Shown: one piece after another, positions 8,195 through 14,898 of the stretch
How the letters are laid out: every line of letters starts with the position of its first letter
How positions within the stretch are numbered: position 1 is the first letter of the stretch
NCBI RefSeq assembly: GCF_018135625.1
Contig: NZ_CP073078.1
Coordinates: 4,372,501-4,436,500, forward strand
Direction of reading: 5' to 3'
Origin: Phenylobacterium montanum
GTDB lineage: Bacteria > Pseudomonadota > Alphaproteobacteria > Caulobacterales > Caulobacteraceae
DNA length: 64,000 bases
Notes under the pieces: generated by a model
Seen by the model: only the letters and a program-made list of their open reading frames with translations
What the model was told of the DNA's origin: nothing
The model's database searches: none
Position numbers and translations under genes: made by a program

Positions 8195-8570
8195 CTTGAT
8201 CTGCGCTTTCTCGGCGATCATGCCGAAGAGTTTCGGGGTCCAGATAGCGACGCGCAGTCGGCTCACAGTAAGCTGAAAGCTAAAACCCCAAATTCCAGCC
8301 CTATGGGCGCGGTTTTCAGCGTTCGCCAGGAGGAGTGGAGTTTTGGGTCCTTTCCGCTTCGACCTTTTCTGACTCGGGCCTGCGTCTCGGCGATTTCAGG
8401 AAACGAGCCGCGTGATCCGCTGTTCCAGGTGGGCGAAGTCGTCTGTGGCGAGGCGGCTTCGGCGCGTCACTACACGATTTTTTTCCAGCCGAGGCGACTA
8501 CAACCTGCGCTGCGCGGTCGAGGCGCTGGCGGCTGCTTCTCGCCCATTTCGCGCGCGATCCTTCCATCTT

Positions 8571-8601
8571 TGGTTGATTTAATACGGTGTACAGTCAAGC
8601 T
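8571..8601 (+). promoter_or_regulatory. 31-bp duplicated upstream block, copy 1
   Basis: A 31-bp block beginning TGGTTGATTTAATACGG and ending ACAGTCAAGCT occurs identically at 11879-11909. It begins 204 bp before the start codon here and 203 bp before the start codon there. The bases after it (AGATATAACG, GTTACTATTT) are also largely shared. TATAAC at the downstream edge could be a -10 element, but no good -35 pairing was settled. Conservation against a diverged background argues for a functional promoter or operator. Confidence 0.55.
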
Positions 8602-8687
8602 TGAGATATAACGGTGTTACTATTTCTAATGTTTCCATCTTTCAAAGCGCTTCCTGCGGCGATATTCTATCTCAACTGGCGCACAAC

Positions 8688-8774: not shown

Positions 8775-11759
8775 ATGACTACTGTCAGCTCCGGTCAGGT
8801 ACAGTACGTTTCGTCCGGCCAGGTCATTGCGAGCACCGTCATTCTAAGCGGTGGCGAACAGTACGTTTATCCTGGAGGCGAGGCCGACTATTCGGTCAAT
8901 TCCGCCGGCGGCTATCTGGTGAACTTCGGCTTAGTCTACTCGATGTTCAACGGCGGCTACGACTATGTCGAAAGCGGCGCCACCACCGAATTAGGGACCG
9001 TCGGCTCGGGGGGGAACGAGTTCGTCTTCTCCGGCGGCCTGTCCTACGAACAGCTCGTCGCCGCCTACGGCTCCCAGACCATCTATTCCGGCGGGCTGGA
9101 CGAATACAGCACCATATCCGGCATCCAGCACGTCTACGGATCGGCCTATGACGACACGGTGGTCGGCGGCCCCTCCTACCAATATGTCGAGAGCGGCGGC
9201 ATCACCACCTATAGCTACGACTATGCCGCGGGCGTGACCGTGGTGTCGTCGGGCGGGCTCACCAGCGTCACCAGGCTCGCCAGCGGTGGTGGGGAGAGCG
9301 TGTACGCGGGTGGTGAGTCGATCAGCAGCATCATCTATTCTGCTGGCAACCAATACGTCTATTCAGGTGGCGCCGACTATTACACAAATGTGAGTTCCGG
9401 CGGTTCGCTCTACAACAATGGCATCGCCTATTACGACACCATAAGCTCGGGCGGCGTCGAGACGATCGCGTCCGGCGGTATCGGCTACCAACAGACCGTC
9501 CAGGGCTACGGGTCGCAGACCATCAACGTCGGCGGGGTGGACGAATACAGCGTCATATCCGGTTACCAATACGACTATGGATCGGCCTATGACGACACGA
9601 TCGTCGGCGGCCCCGCCTGGCAATATGTCGAGAGCGGCGGGTCCACGACCTACAGCTACGCCTACGGCGCTGGCGCGATCGTCGTGTCTTCGGGCGGCGT
9701 CACCAACCTTACGACGCTGGGCAGCGGCGGCGGTGAAACCGTCTCCGCGGGCGGCATCGCCAGCAGCACGACAATCTACTCGGCTGGCGCCCAATATGTC
9801 GCCGCCGGTGGGGGCGACGAATATTCCAACGTGCAGTCCGGCGGCTCGCTCACCGTCTATGGCTACGCCTACTACGACACGATCGGGTCCGGCGGCACCG
9901 AGACCATCGGGTCGGCCGCTCTCACCTACAGCCAAACCGTCGCGGGCTTCGGCTCGCAGACGATTTTTGCGGGCGGCGTGGACGAGTACAGCCTGATCTC
10001 CGGCTACCAGTACGACTACGGCGAGGCCTATGCCGACACGGTGACCGGCGTCGACGCCTACCAGTATATCGAGAGCGGCGGGGTCGCTTACTACGACGCG
10101 ATCAACGGCGGCGGCTACGCCACCGTGTCGAGCGGCGGCCTCGACATCAGCGGCACGGTTGGCAGCGGCGGCTATGAGTACGTCTATTCAGGCGGTGCGG
10201 TTAGTGGCGTGACGGTGGGCAGCGGCGGCGTGCTGATCCTGTATTCGGGCGCGGCCGCAGCTGGCGTCGTCAGCAGCGGCGGCATCGTGGAGATATTCAA
10301 TCGCGACGTCACCGCGGGGGTGACGCTGTCGGCCGGCGTCTACCCGTCTTCGCGGAACGTCGGCAACCTGGCCATCCGGCCCGGCGGCACCGTCGATCTC
10401 TTCTATGCCAACGTGCTCAGCGGCGGGGTGCTGCAGACCCTTTCCGGCGGTTATGACTACTACGCCACGGTCAACAGCGGCGGCATCGCCTATGTTCAGT
10501 CCGGCGGCTACCTTTACGACGCGACGATTAAGGCGGGCGCCCACGACTCCATCCTGGCGGGCGGTTCGGCTGCCTATACGCAGATATCCAGCGGCGGGTT
10601 CGAAACCACCAGCTCGGGCGCCACGACCTATACCCCCTACGCCTATAGCGGCGGCTTCGAGTACGTCTCGTCCGGCGGCGTAGTCAGCAATGCGCAGATC
10701 GGTCCGGGGGCCCATGACACCGTCTATGGCAAGGCCTACGGGACGGTCGTCAGCGGAACTGGGGCGTCCGAGATCGTCAGCGGGTCCGGCGTGGCCAGCG
10801 GGACTAGCCTGTCCGCCGGCGCGGTGCAGTATGTCGGCCCGGGAGCCACGGCCAACGGCACGATCATCCTGGCCGGCGCCCACACCCACATCAGCGGCGG
10901 CGGGGTGGCCAGCGGGACGCAGATCTCCAGCGGCGGGTTCCAGAGCCTCTCCGGCGGGACCGGGATCGCCGAGGTGGTCTCCTCCGGCGGGGTGCTCTAT
11001 GCCATCTCCGGCGGCGTCGCGAGTTCGACCATCGTGCTCAGCGGCGGCCACGACAGCCTGCTCCTCAGCGGCAAGGGGGTGAACACCACCCTCTCCAGCG
11101 GAGCGGCCGAGAACGTCGAGTCGGGCTCGATCGCGGTCAACACCCTGGTCCAGTCCGGCGGGCACCAGTATGTGTTCTCCGGCGGGACAGCCAGCGGCAC
11201 GACGGTCAACAGCGGCGGCATCGTCACGGTCTCGTCCGGCGGCAATATCGCGGCTGGCCTGACCATCAATGGCGGCCTGGTGATCGACAACGGCAATATC
11301 GGCGCGGGCCAGACGGTCGGCTTCCTGGGCAGCGGCGGGAGCCTGAAGCTGTACAACACCGGCGGGTTCGCGGCGAAGATCTCGGGCTTTGTGCTCGGCG
11401 ACCACATCGACCTGACAACCTTCGCCTTTAGCGCCGGCGAGACCTCGGCCTGGGTTCAGAACGGCACCAGCGGCACGCTGACGATCACCGACGGGGCCCT
11501 GGTCGAGCACCTGACGCTGATCGGGACCTACGTCACCAGCAACTTCAAGCTGGTCAATGACGGCTCCGGCGGCACCATGATCAATGACCCGCCGGTTAGC
11601 GCCGCCACCGCCACGACCACCCTGTTCGCCCAGAACGCGGCCGCGATGGGCGGGCACGGCGGCGGCTTCGCGCCGACGACCTCGACGACCTCCAGCTGGG
11701 GCGCCGCGGTCACCAGCGCCCTTGTCCCGAGCGGAGGCGCTTCGAGCGCCACAGTCTGA
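8775..11759 (+). CDS. Giant strand-loop-strand (AIDA-type) repeat surface protein, copy 1
   Basis: 994-residue Gly/Ser/Tyr-rich protein built almost entirely of about 20-residue units ending in SGG, the autotransporter passenger strand-loop-strand repeat that forms a right-handed beta-solenoid. The N-terminal half carries a higher-order repeat of exactly 147 residues, seen as GSQTI at residues 99, 246 and 393, each followed by DEYS and a GSAY or GEAY block. Repeats start at residue 3 with no signal peptide. The C-terminus has ISGFVLGDHIDLTTF, GTLTITDG and NDGSGGTMI, a pattern common at the end of alphaproteobacterial type I secreted proteins. No beta-barrel is present. The role is probably adhesion or surface coating. 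A tandem paralogue follows, with an almost identical C-terminal third. Confidence 0.85.
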   Translation: MTTVSSGQVQYVSSGQVIASTVILSGGEQYVYPGGEADYSVNSAGGYLVNFGLVYSMFNGGYDYVESGATTELGTVGSGGNEFVFSGGLSYEQLVAAYGSQTIYSGGLDEYSTISGIQHVYGSAYDDTVVGGPSYQYVESGGITTYSYDYAAGVTVVSSGGLTSVTRLASGGGESVYAGGESISSIIYSAGNQYVYSGGADYYTNVSSGGSLYNNGIAYYDTISSGGVETIASGGIGYQQTVQGYGSQTINVGGVDEYSVISGYQYDYGSAYDDTIVGGPAWQYVESGGSTTYSYAYGAGAIVVSSGGVTNLTTLGSGGGETVSAGGIASSTTIYSAGAQYVAAGGGDEYSNVQSGGSLTVYGYAYYDTIGSGGTETIGSAALTYSQTVAGFGSQTIFAGGVDEYSLISGYQYDYGEAYADTVTGVDAYQYIESGGVAYYDAINGGGYATVSSGGLDISGTVGSGGYEYVYSGGAVSGVTVGSGGVLILYSGAAAAGVVSSGGIVEIFNRDVTAGVTLSAGVYPSSRNVGNLAIRPGGTVDLFYANVLSGGVLQTLSGGYDYYATVNSGGIAYVQSGGYLYDATIKAGAHDSILAGGSAAYTQISSGGFETTSSGATTYTPYAYSGGFEYVSSGGVVSNAQIGPGAHDTVYGKAYGTVVSGTGASEIVSGSGVASGTSLSAGAVQYVGPGATANGTIILAGAHTHISGGGVASGTQISSGGFQSLSGGTGIAEVVSSGGVLYAISGGVASSTIVLSGGHDSLLLSGKGVNTTLSSGAAENVESGSIAVNTLVQSGGHQYVFSGGTASGTTVNSGGIVTVSSGGNIAAGLTINGGLVIDNGNIGAGQTVGFLGSGGSLKLYNTGGFAAKISGFVLGDHIDLTTFAFSAGETSAWVQNGTSGTLTITDGALVEHLTLIGTYVTSNFKLVNDGSGGTMINDPPVSAATATTTLFAQNAAAMGGHGGGFAPTTSTTSSWGAAVTSALVPSGGASSATV
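10857..11152 (+). repeat. 296-bp perfectly identical segment, copy 1
   Basis: By direct reading, these 296 coding bases match 13999-14294 with no differences, synonymous positions included. Flanking sequence on both sides shows scattered substitutions and the 5' halves of the two genes are strongly diverged. The mixture indicates recent gene conversion or selective homogenisation of this part. Confidence 0.85.
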
Positions 11760-11785
11760 TCCCTGCGCGGTAGAATTGAACGGCC

Positions 11786-11819
11786 AGGCCCTGGGCTGCT
11801 GCGAAGCAGCCCAGGGCTT
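11786..11819 (+). terminator. Hairpin terminator after first adhesin
   Basis: CCCTGGGCTGCT and AGCAGCCCAGGG form a perfect 12-bp stem around a GCGA tetraloop, extended by three more pairs (one of them G-U). It sits 29 nt after the stop codon. The following T-run is only three bases, so it may also serve as a 3' stability hairpin. Confidence 0.7.
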
Positions 11820-11878
11820 TGGCGTATGAGCCTCACCGCAGCTCGCTTTCGCTGATTCACGATGGCAGCCACCATCTG

Positions 11879-11909
11879 TGGTTGATTTAATACGGTGTAC
11901 AGTCAAGCT
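11879..11909 (+). promoter_or_regulatory. 31-bp duplicated upstream block, copy 2
   Basis: Identical to 8571-8601 and placed 203 bp before the second adhesin start codon. The intervening 170 bp is only partly conserved; the islands kept are AGATATAACG, GTTACTATTT, CTTTCAAAGCG, CAACTGTGACC and TGTCATAG. This footprint-like pattern suggests protein-binding sites. Confidence 0.55.
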
Positions 11910-11995
11910 CAAGATATAACGTCGTTACTATTTGAAGCAATTCGCTCTTTCAAAGCGTGACTGATAGAGTTAGCTTAGCTTCATTGGGGCGCAAC

Positions 11996-12011
11996 TGTGA
12001 CCTATGTCATA
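11996..12011 (+). promoter_or_regulatory. CRP/FNR-like dyad upstream of second adhesin
   Basis: TGTGACCTATGTCATA, the counterpart of 8688-8703, is located 70 nt before the ATG at 12082. Half-sites are conserved between the two copies while the central spacer has changed. Confidence 0.45.
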
Positions 12012-12081
12012 GTTTCAGATCTTTATCTGGCCGACGTCTGGCCCTTGCGTCTCGCTCAACTCGAATGTCGGGGGCAAAAGA

Positions 12082-14898
12082 ATGACCATCGTCAGCTCAG
12101 GCCAGGTCCAGTACGTATCCTTCGGCCAGAACATAACCAGCACCACCGTTCTGAGCGGCGGCGAAGAGGTCATCCTCTCGGGAGGAGAGACGCAGTATTC
12201 GACCATATCCGCCGGCGGATACCAATTTGTCGAAACGGGAAGCCTGGACGAATTCAGCAACATCTATGGCAGCCAGTACGTCTACGGATCGACCTACGGC
12301 GACACGGTCTATGGCGGACCATCGTTCCAGTTTGTCGAGGCCGGCGGCGTAGCGGTCGGCGACACGCTCTACGGCGCCGGCCTGTCCGAGGTCTTGTCCG
12401 GGGGCGCCACCAGCTATTCCTATATCGGCAGCGGGGGGAACGAACAGGTCTCTTCGGGCGGCTTTTCCGATCAGACGACGATCGTCTCGGCGGGAGCCCA
12501 GACCGTCTATTCCGGCGGGCTCGACGAGTATTCCTACGTCTATTCCAGCGGCTTTCTCAACGTCGACGGCGCCGCCTATTACGACACGATTGAATCGGGC
12601 GGGATCGAGAGCGTCTATTCCGGCGGCCTGGCCTATGCGCAGACCATCAGCGCCTATGGCGTCGAGACCGTCTATTCCGGCGGCCAAGACGAGTACACCA
12701 CCATATATGGTGTCCAATCCAATTTCGGCGCCACCTACGGCGACGTCGTCTATGGCGGTCCCTCCTTCCAGTTTGTCGAAAGCGGCGGGACCACGATGTC
12801 CAGCTATGCCTATGGCGCAGGCCTGGTTGAGGTCCTGTCCGGCGGGGCCGCCAGCGCGACCATTCTCGGCAGCGGCGGCCTGGAAACCGTTCTTGCGGGA
12901 GGCGCTGCGTTCGGCACCATCATCTCTTCGGCCGGCGGCGAGACGATCTCGTCCGGCGCCTACGAGCAGATTGGTGAAATCCTGAGCGGCGGCGTGCTCA
13001 CCAACTATGGTGTCGCCTACTACGAGGCCATCAGCGCCGGCGGCGTGGAAAACATCGAATCCGGCGGCTTTGGTTACGGGCAAACGCTCGGCGTCGGCGG
13101 TGTCGAGAACGTCTATGCCGGCGGCGTGGATGAATACAGCACGGTTTCCGGCGTCCAGAACATTTATGGCGAGTCCTATGCCAATGCGATCGTCGGCCCC
13201 CAATATATCCAGAATGGCGGGATCGGCAGCGCCGACACGATCAGCGCCGGGGGCGTCACCGTCGTATCCAGCGGCGGTGTCGACTCCAGCCCCACGATCG
13301 GCAGCGGCGGGGTCGAGTATGTCTCGTCGGGCGGGGTGGTCAGCGGCCCCACGGTGGAGAGCGCGGGGTACGAGATTCTGTATTCGGGCGCTTCCATCTT
13401 CGGCGGGACTGTCAGCAGCGGGGGCAGCCTGGAGATCTATAATCGGACCGTCCCCTCCGGCGTGGCGCTGTCCGCAGGCGCCTATGCGACATCGCGGACG
13501 GTCGGCAGCACGGCGGTCCTGGCTGGCGGCATCGTCGACCTCGTCTATGCCAACGTGCTCAGCGGCGGGACACTGCACACCTTCGCCGGCGGCTACAACG
13601 AATTCGCGGTGATCAGCGGCGGCGGCATCGCCTACACGCACTCCGGCGGCCTGCTCTACGAGGCGACCATCCTCGCAGGCGCGCACGACTCCATCCTGGC
13701 GGGCGGCTCCTCCTACTACACGCTGATCTCAAGCGGCGGTTTCGAAACCACCAGTTCGGGCGCCACGGCCTATACGCCTTACGCCTACAGCGGCGGGTTC
13801 GAATATGTCTCCGCCGGTGGGGTGGTCAGCAATGCGCAGATTGGCCCCGGCGCCCACGATACGGTCTATGGTCAGGCCTTCGGTACCTTCGTCAGCGGCC
13901 TCGGCGCGTCAGAAATCGTCAGCGGCAGCGGCGTAACCACTGGGACCACCTTGTCGGCCGGAGCGGTGCAGTATGTCGGCCCGGGGGCCACGGCCAATGG
14001 CACGATCATCCTGGCCGGCGCCCACACCCACATCAGCGGCGGCGGGGTGGCCAGCGGGACGCAGATCTCCAGCGGCGGGTTCCAGAGCCTCTCCGGCGGG
14101 ACCGGGATCGCCGAGGTGGTCTCCTCCGGCGGGGTGCTCTATGCCATCTCCGGCGGCGTCGCGAGTTCGACCATCGTGCTCAGCGGCGGCCACGACAGCC
14201 TGCTCCTCAGCGGCAAGGGGGTGAACACCACCCTCTCCAGCGGAGCGGCCGAGAACGTCGAGTCGGGCTCGATCGCGGTCAACACCCTGGTCCAATCCGG
14301 CGGGCACCAGTATGTGTTCTCCGGTGGGGTCGCCAGCGGCACGACGGTCAACAGCGGCGGCATCGTCACCGTCTCGTCCGGCGGCAATATCGCAGCCGGC
14401 CTGACCATCAACGGCGGCCTGGTGATCGACAACGGCAATATCGGCGCGGGCCAGACGGTCGGCTTCCTGGGCAGCGGCGGGAACCTGAAGCTGTACAACA
14501 CCGGCGGGTTCGCGGCGAAGATCTCGGGCTTTGTGCTCGGCGATCACATCGACCTGACCACCTTCGCCTTCAGCGCTGGCGAGACATCGGCTTGGGTGCA
14601 GAATGGGACCAGCGGCACGCTGACGATCACCGACGGCGCCCTGGTCGAGCACCTGACCCTGATCGGGACCTATGTCACCAGCAACTTCAAGCTGGTCAAC
14701 GACGGCTCTGGCGGCACCATGATCAATGACCCGCCGGTCAGCGCCGCCACCGCCACCACCACATTGTTCGCGCAGAACGCGGCGGCGATGGGCGGCCACG
14801 GCGGCGGCTTCGCGCCGACGACCTCGACGACCTCCAGCTGGGGCGCCGCGGTCACCAGCGCCCTGGTTCCCAGTGGCGGCACGTCGGGAACCGCCTGA
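12082..14898 (+). CDS. Giant strand-loop-strand (AIDA-type) repeat surface protein, copy 2
   Basis: 938-residue paralogue of the preceding gene with the same plan: strand-loop-strand SGG repeats from the first residues, a diverged N-terminal half with repeated DEYS/DEFS plus GGPSFQFVE blocks, and a C-terminal third almost identical to copy 1, ending in the GDHIDL / TLTITDG / DGSGGTMI module and a tail rich in Thr, Ser and Gly. There is no signal peptide and no translocator barrel, so export by a type I or other machinery encoded elsewhere is inferred. The GGGGG ribosome-binding stretch 8-9 nt before the ATG is also shared with copy 1. AIDA-type repeats are known O-heptosylation targets in E. 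coli; no heptosyltransferase lies nearby. Confidence 0.85.
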   Translation: MTIVSSGQVQYVSFGQNITSTTVLSGGEEVILSGGETQYSTISAGGYQFVETGSLDEFSNIYGSQYVYGSTYGDTVYGGPSFQFVEAGGVAVGDTLYGAGLSEVLSGGATSYSYIGSGGNEQVSSGGFSDQTTIVSAGAQTVYSGGLDEYSYVYSSGFLNVDGAAYYDTIESGGIESVYSGGLAYAQTISAYGVETVYSGGQDEYTTIYGVQSNFGATYGDVVYGGPSFQFVESGGTTMSSYAYGAGLVEVLSGGAASATILGSGGLETVLAGGAAFGTIISSAGGETISSGAYEQIGEILSGGVLTNYGVAYYEAISAGGVENIESGGFGYGQTLGVGGVENVYAGGVDEYSTVSGVQNIYGESYANAIVGPQYIQNGGIGSADTISAGGVTVVSSGGVDSSPTIGSGGVEYVSSGGVVSGPTVESAGYEILYSGASIFGGTVSSGGSLEIYNRTVPSGVALSAGAYATSRTVGSTAVLAGGIVDLVYANVLSGGTLHTFAGGYNEFAVISGGGIAYTHSGGLLYEATILAGAHDSILAGGSSYYTLISSGGFETTSSGATAYTPYAYSGGFEYVSAGGVVSNAQIGPGAHDTVYGQAFGTFVSGLGASEIVSGSGVTTGTTLSAGAVQYVGPGATANGTIILAGAHTHISGGGVASGTQISSGGFQSLSGGTGIAEVVSSGGVLYAISGGVASSTIVLSGGHDSLLLSGKGVNTTLSSGAAENVESGSIAVNTLVQSGGHQYVFSGGVASGTTVNSGGIVTVSSGGNIAAGLTINGGLVIDNGNIGAGQTVGFLGSGGNLKLYNTGGFAAKISGFVLGDHIDLTTFAFSAGETSAWVQNGTSGTLTITDGALVEHLTLIGTYVTSNFKLVNDGSGGTMINDPPVSAATATTTLFAQNAAAMGGHGGGFAPTTSTTSSWGAAVTSALVPSGGTSGTA
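13999..14294 (+). repeat. 296-bp perfectly identical segment, copy 2
   Basis: Partner of 10857-11152, offset 3142 bp. The match is broken on the left by a C/T difference and on the right by a G/A difference, both synonymous. Confidence 0.85.

Follow-up and report, generated by a model that had tools for sequence, protein, structure and literature searches.

The window, a stretch of 64,000 nucleotides from the genome of Phenylobacterium montanum (5.65 Mb on 2 contigs, surveyed as a whole), carries two tandem paralogous genes, termed A and B, whose products are 73% identical to each other and which, at 994 and 938 residues, were overstated as "giant" proteins in the earlier note. The pair is flanked by a NUDIX gene on one side and a TetR gene on the other, and comprises the following elements:

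8564..8625, + strand: 62-bp element upstream of A, sharing 92% identity with its counterpart at B; a possible promoter or regulator site
8775..11759, + strand: gene A, 994 aa; TIGR04415 196 bits, PF16168 58.5 bits
11787..11817, + strand: inverted repeat downstream of A, without a T run, read from the sequence; a possible terminator hairpin
11872..11933, + strand: upstream element of B, counterpart of the 62-bp element of A
12082..14898, + strand: gene B, tandem paralog of A, 938 aa; TIGR04415 179 bits, PF16168 65.4 bits
14923..14953, + strand: diverged counterpart of the hairpin of A, downstream of B

As each gene possesses its own upstream element and downstream inverted repeat, A and B look like a duplicated transcription unit. 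The 23-nt core of the upstream element is absent elsewhere in the genome, and a consensus scan did not call a terminator at 11787..11817. Orthologs of A and B were not found in genus-level relatives.

Both proteins score above the cut-offs of TIGR04415, the strand-loop-strand O-heptosylation target repeat, and of PF16168, the AIDA stalk, and their closest relatives among solved sequences are TibA (4q1q, E 3e-38) and Ag43. The AlphaFold model of A (mean pLDDT 79.5; confidence is low for the final 110 residues of the full-length prediction) consists of a β-solenoid extending from residue 1 to about residue 880, interrupted by one weak joint at residues 510-524, and superimposes onto the hyper-glycosylated, heptosylated TibA fragment 4q1q with a Z-score of 31.9 and 1.4 Å over 263 residues. 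Judged by these comparisons, A and B are strand-loop-strand β-solenoids of the TibA/AIDA-I/Ag43 type. Heptosylated β-solenoids are known as autotransporters. Hydropathy indicates no signal peptide in A and B (N-terminal maximum 0.95), and the repeat starts at residue 1.

C-terminal module, heptosyltransferase and type I secretion genes

Both A and B end in a C-terminal module, delimited on the basis of the alignment, the model and the type I secretion system (T1SS) genes located after homologous modules. Related copies and the genes accompanying one of them lie elsewhere in the genome:

11307..11756, + strand: C-terminal module of A, from about residue 845 to the end
14449..14895, + strand: C-terminal module of B
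C1:3.15 Mb: paralog C, full-length
C1:5.51 Mb: paralog D, full-length
C1:4624232-4625639 (L013 2233-3640): paralog E, broken, with an in-frame TAG; C-terminal module kept
C1:5507669-5512722: T1SS genes beside D (ABC/HlyD/TolC), with the ABC gene at C1:5507669-5509813
C1:5515656-5517020: predicted O-heptosyltransferase gene next to D; TIGR04414 618 bits against a curated cut-off of 200

Two of these copies show features of their own. In D (L012 4752-7253), the heptosylation-type solenoid is preceded, within one fusion protein, by an NF038122-type metalloprotease domain, and beside the broken copy E, on the other strand, lies a 561-aa tandem-repeat gene with the look of a T1SS adhesin.

In the model of A, the module is composed of a β-rich cap and an unstructured tail of about 55 residues, which would be compatible with an uncleaved C-terminal secretion signal. 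None of the Pfam and NCBIfam models describes the module, and its Foldseek matches, weak and mixed (best the fungal Awp1/Awp3b adhesin domains, E 5e-4), were left unused. Relatives were found with an alignment of the C-terminal module, the whole protein A having no match in the named genome collection; the viral contigs searched contained none. The genomic surroundings of these relatives are informative. D is positioned between the heptosyltransferase gene and a complete T1SS (HlyB TIGR01846 889 bits, HlyD TIGR01843 390, TolC TIGR01844 258), whose HlyB-type ABC protein has a C39-like extension at its N-terminus. Two Reyranella MAGs likewise encode a heptosyltransferase, an ABC-C39 protein and HlyD together with a strand-loop-strand protein that ends in the same C-terminal module and measures 1393 aa in one of the MAGs, so that the linkage of solenoid, heptosyltransferase and T1SS is seen in two lineages. 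In Mesorhizobium (two loci) and Bradyrhizobium (one), ABC and HlyD genes come immediately after the module. Altogether, ABC plus HlyD genes are present at five, and ABC alone at one, of the 11 named loci with at least 5 kb beyond the module, compared with a rough chance rate of 1.4% per locus for four T1SS HlyD genes per genome, the loci being partly non-independent. The secretion function guessed for the C-terminus in the earlier note is thereby strengthened, since homologous modules directly precede T1SS genes, and we infer from these sequence relationships that the module serves secretion by a T1SS. RTX nonapeptides (GGxGxD), common in T1SS substrates although not universal, were not found in A-D.

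The gene next to D is the only one in the genome matched by TIGR04414. Its product aligns with TibC (4rb4) over 380 residues and keeps an Asp at the D110 position as well as the four iron-finger Cys, corresponding to the catalytic Asp110 and iron-finger residues named for TibC (PMC4358343). By homology it is a heptosyltransferase of the TibC (BAHT) family, for which transfer onto solenoid serines is predicted. The supply of ADP-heptose is partly shown at the level of gene content: HldE of the pathway is present, and the model TIGR00441 found no gmhA in the genome, a negative that carries no information because the model also misses the control Caulobacter vibrioides. No barrel (PF03797) was found by Pfam scan in A, B, D and the Reyranella protein, nor was one visible in the structure models; the same scan detects the autotransporter barrel in the neighbour of the Paraburkholderia heptosyltransferase. 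In Gluconobacter, Acetobacter and other members of the class, the heptosyltransferase neighbours carry a Hint_2 domain. This domain takes the place of the barrel at four loci (L063, L064, L103 and L104), including Gluconobacter/Acetobacter plasmids, and some of the proteins possess strand-loop-strand repeats.

A and B reside 1.13 Mb from the heptosyltransferase and its T1SS. Because of this distance, and since the genome contains four HlyD genes of the T1SS type, none of them linked to A and B, the exporter of A and B is assigned solely by homology to D. The same facts would also suit export of A and B through one of the three remaining T1SS loci, with D alone using the heptosyltransferase-linked system. 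Against this stands the 55-65% identity between the C-terminal modules of A and D, and we regard a separate exporter as unlikely, although it is the most serious competitor of our assignment.

Divergent solenoid and identical tract

Divergence between A and B is distributed unevenly, as manifested in the N-terminal super-repeats on the one hand and an identical tract on the other:

8997..9437, + strand: super-repeat A1, 147 aa; TRF period 441, 2.3 copies
9438..9878, + strand: super-repeat A2, 147-aa unit of A
9879..10319, + strand: super-repeat A3, diverged or partial
12145..12585, + strand: super-repeat B1
12586..13026, + strand: super-repeat B2
10857..11152, + strand: proposed conversion tract in A, coding for residues 695-793; a 296-bp perfect match to B
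13999..14294, + strand: proposed conversion tract in B; 296 bp identical to A, offset 3142

The N-terminal parts are strongly diverged, as previously proposed, with an A-B dS of 0.77 and an averaged dN/dS of 0.48-0.65. Super-repeats A1 and A2 share 66% identity, as against only 51-53% with the units of B (A1-B1 51%); this closer relationship within A suggests that A grew by an internal 147-aa duplication after the A/B split. Positive selection is not indicated in the N-terminal part, where the average dN/dS lies below 1 for the few sequences compared, and the earlier note's picture of an exposed solenoid diversifying as in variable surface antigens is accordingly not supported.

According to the model, the tract (residues 695-793) lies within the final portion of the solenoid and not in the export module. 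The module itself (ca. residues 845-994) is kept by purifying selection on the protein, its A-B dS being 0.24-0.45 at a dN near 0. With the tract placed in the solenoid and the module under selection at the protein level, a conversion process that keeps the secretion module common, as originally suggested, is not what the data show. This bears directly on the possibility that A and B are varying or switching antigens, in which immune or phage selection would diversify the solenoid and conversion would maintain the anchor. The tandem arrangement, the divergent N-terminal and common C-terminal parts and the separate conserved upstream elements of A and B would suit such a system, and a comparable layout with swapped loci is found in the adhesins HMW1/HMW2 of Haemophilus influenzae, a cytosolically glycosylated paralogous pair whose binding parts diverge and whose loci recombine with each other (PMC4849778). 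HMW1/HMW2 differ, however, from A/B in their two-partner secretion, their N-linked glycosylation by HMW1C and their non-tandem loci. Moreover, the dN/dS of the N-terminal part and the position of the tract outside the anchor speak against switching antigens, the surroundings of A and B, in the one genome of the species covered, show neither a recombinase nor a silent cassette or simple-sequence repeats, and nothing seen here marks the alphaproteobacterium as a host-adapted pathogen. We therefore consider antigen switching improbable, somewhat more so than a separate exporter, and prefer to view A and B as ordinarily diverging adhesins with a recent exchange.

The 296-bp perfect identity described in the earlier note was reproduced exactly (10857-11152 versus 13999-14294). 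Synonymous divergence is not uniform along the genes: beside the 0.77 of the N-terminal part, the A-B dS amounts to 1.02 (dN 0.09) in the block 10512-10815 just upstream of the tract, to 0 within the tract limits, the single difference counted being position 11153, and to 0.24 (dN 0.008) in the rest of the C-terminal part beyond the tract. Further exact runs (A coordinates) are found at 11190-11227, 11271-11340, 11342-11401 and 11655-11722. The claimed near-identity of the C-terminal third thus holds for the protein but not for the silent sites, 27 of 132 of which differ outside the tract. Inside the tract, A equals B at all 21 of the 21 silent sites variable among A, B and C. The run of 23 silent variable sites at which A and B agree and differ from C was never reached in 20,000 whole-gene site shuffles (p ~5e-5), and shuffling within the C-terminal third alone yields p ~1.5e-4; the longest gap between third-position differences of A and B in the C-terminal block measures 297 nt (p ~1e-5 versus uniform placement).

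Such an identity might in principle also be produced by selection on silent sites, i.e. codon usage, RNA structure or an overlapping gene. Both A and B have a higher GC3 in their C-terminal third (0.91-0.97 versus 0.80-0.83), dS is lower in this third for the pairs A-C, B-C and A-D as well, and there is a long overlapping antisense open reading frame. The fall of dS common to these pairs, together with the higher GC3, indicates at least partly a codon constraint. For the tract, however, comparison with C shows about 21.5 differences in 81 silent sites for A and for B alike (dS 0.33), and comparison with D a dS of ca. 0.7-0.9, which means that the silent sites there are free to change, and the probability of zero changes in the tract at the rate of the remaining C-terminal third is ~1e-8. 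Antisense frames of this kind are expected in GC-rich DNA. Silent-site selection is, consequently, a very improbable cause of the 296-bp identity. Since the upstream block is conserved in protein and has nonetheless reached a dS of about 1, the best reading is that gene conversion has recently acted between A and B, as already favoured in the earlier note, and the protein-conserved neighbour block makes this case useful as one that contains its own control. Gene conversion between paralogous adhesins is an ordinary process. Exchange with C left no significant run, neither for A-C (p 0.41) nor for B-C (p 0.017 before multiple-test correction). An older three-way conversion behind the low A-C and B-C dS was considered and set aside as indistinguishable from codon constraint, A-D showing the same effect.

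Proposed mechanism and relation to known systems

Taking the data together, we consider it likely that A and B represent tandem-duplicated surface adhesins of the TibA/AIDA-I/Ag43 type which are heptosylated, exported by a T1SS and recently gene-converted. The sequences show the conversion signature, the class of fold, the conserved residues of the enzyme and the linkage of the genes; heptosylation of A and B themselves, export by the T1SS beside D and a function as adhesins are the inferred components of the following scenario. The A and B chains would be made without a signal peptide, and serines of the solenoid loops would be O-heptosylated in the cytosol by the single TibC-type enzyme of the genome at the expense of ADP-heptose. 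Subsequently, the HlyB/HlyD/TolC exporter, whose genes neighbour those of D and the heptosyltransferase, might recognize the uncleaved C-terminal module, and the exported chains would fold outside the cell as needle-like adhesive stalks. On the evolutionary side, the N-terminal ends of the paralogs presumably diverged by ordinary divergence and duplication of the 147-aa super-repeat, and recombination between the tandem copies may recently have replaced some 300 bp coding for the final turns of the solenoid. Two-partner secretion, with A and B as passengers and the outer-membrane barrel supplied by a separate protein, would agree with a passenger fold equal to that of autotransporters, but it is the least probable of the alternatives, given the hydropathy result, the lack of a TpsB-type barrel gene adjacent to A and B and a C-terminal module common to proteins encoded directly before T1SS genes.

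With TibA, AIDA-I and Ag43 of E. coli, A and B share the strand-loop-strand β-solenoid with TIGR04415/PF16168 repeats, and their genome likewise encodes a member of the same heptosyltransferase family; unlike these autotransporters, they are devoid of a detected signal peptide or C-terminal barrel and their module is tied to T1SS genes. The enzyme, in turn, resembles the BAHT members TibC and Aah (PMC4358343) in full-length core homology, the Asp110 equivalent and the four iron-finger Cys. The described members are reported beside autotransporters, in contrast to the gene found here beside a T1SS and a barrel-less substrate. The non-RTX T1SS adhesins of Mesorhizobium and Bradyrhizobium possess the same C-terminal module followed by ABC and HlyD; their passengers, however, show little or no strand-loop-strand match, and no heptosyltransferase was found beside them.

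A review on type 5 secretion counts these heptosyltransferases within that pathway and raises the question of how a passenger that has received its sugars inside the ring of heptosyltransferases, and seems to be folded in part, comes to be released, unfolded and exported (PMC8151025). A natural pairing of this enzyme and this solenoid with T1SS export would uncouple glycosylation from autotransport and make the question directly testable. In the literature searched, which left subscription journals mostly outside, no relevant report combined BAHT or O-heptosyltransferases with type I secretion, and a TibC-type heptosyltransferase coupled to T1SS substrates is apparently unreported there. It appears moderately probable, with less assurance than the reading of A and B, that an alphaproteobacterial branch of TibC-type O-heptosyltransferases serves T1SS solenoids by one-step ABC export, the Acetobacteraceae partner having Hint and no barrel; the family name "autotransporter heptosyltransferase" is suggested to be too narrow.

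The module motif also occurs more than once in a 1650-aa protein (C1:1640352-1645304; L108 3853-8805), which has no clear strand-loop-strand repeats and, from its sequence, is probably another T1SS adhesin.
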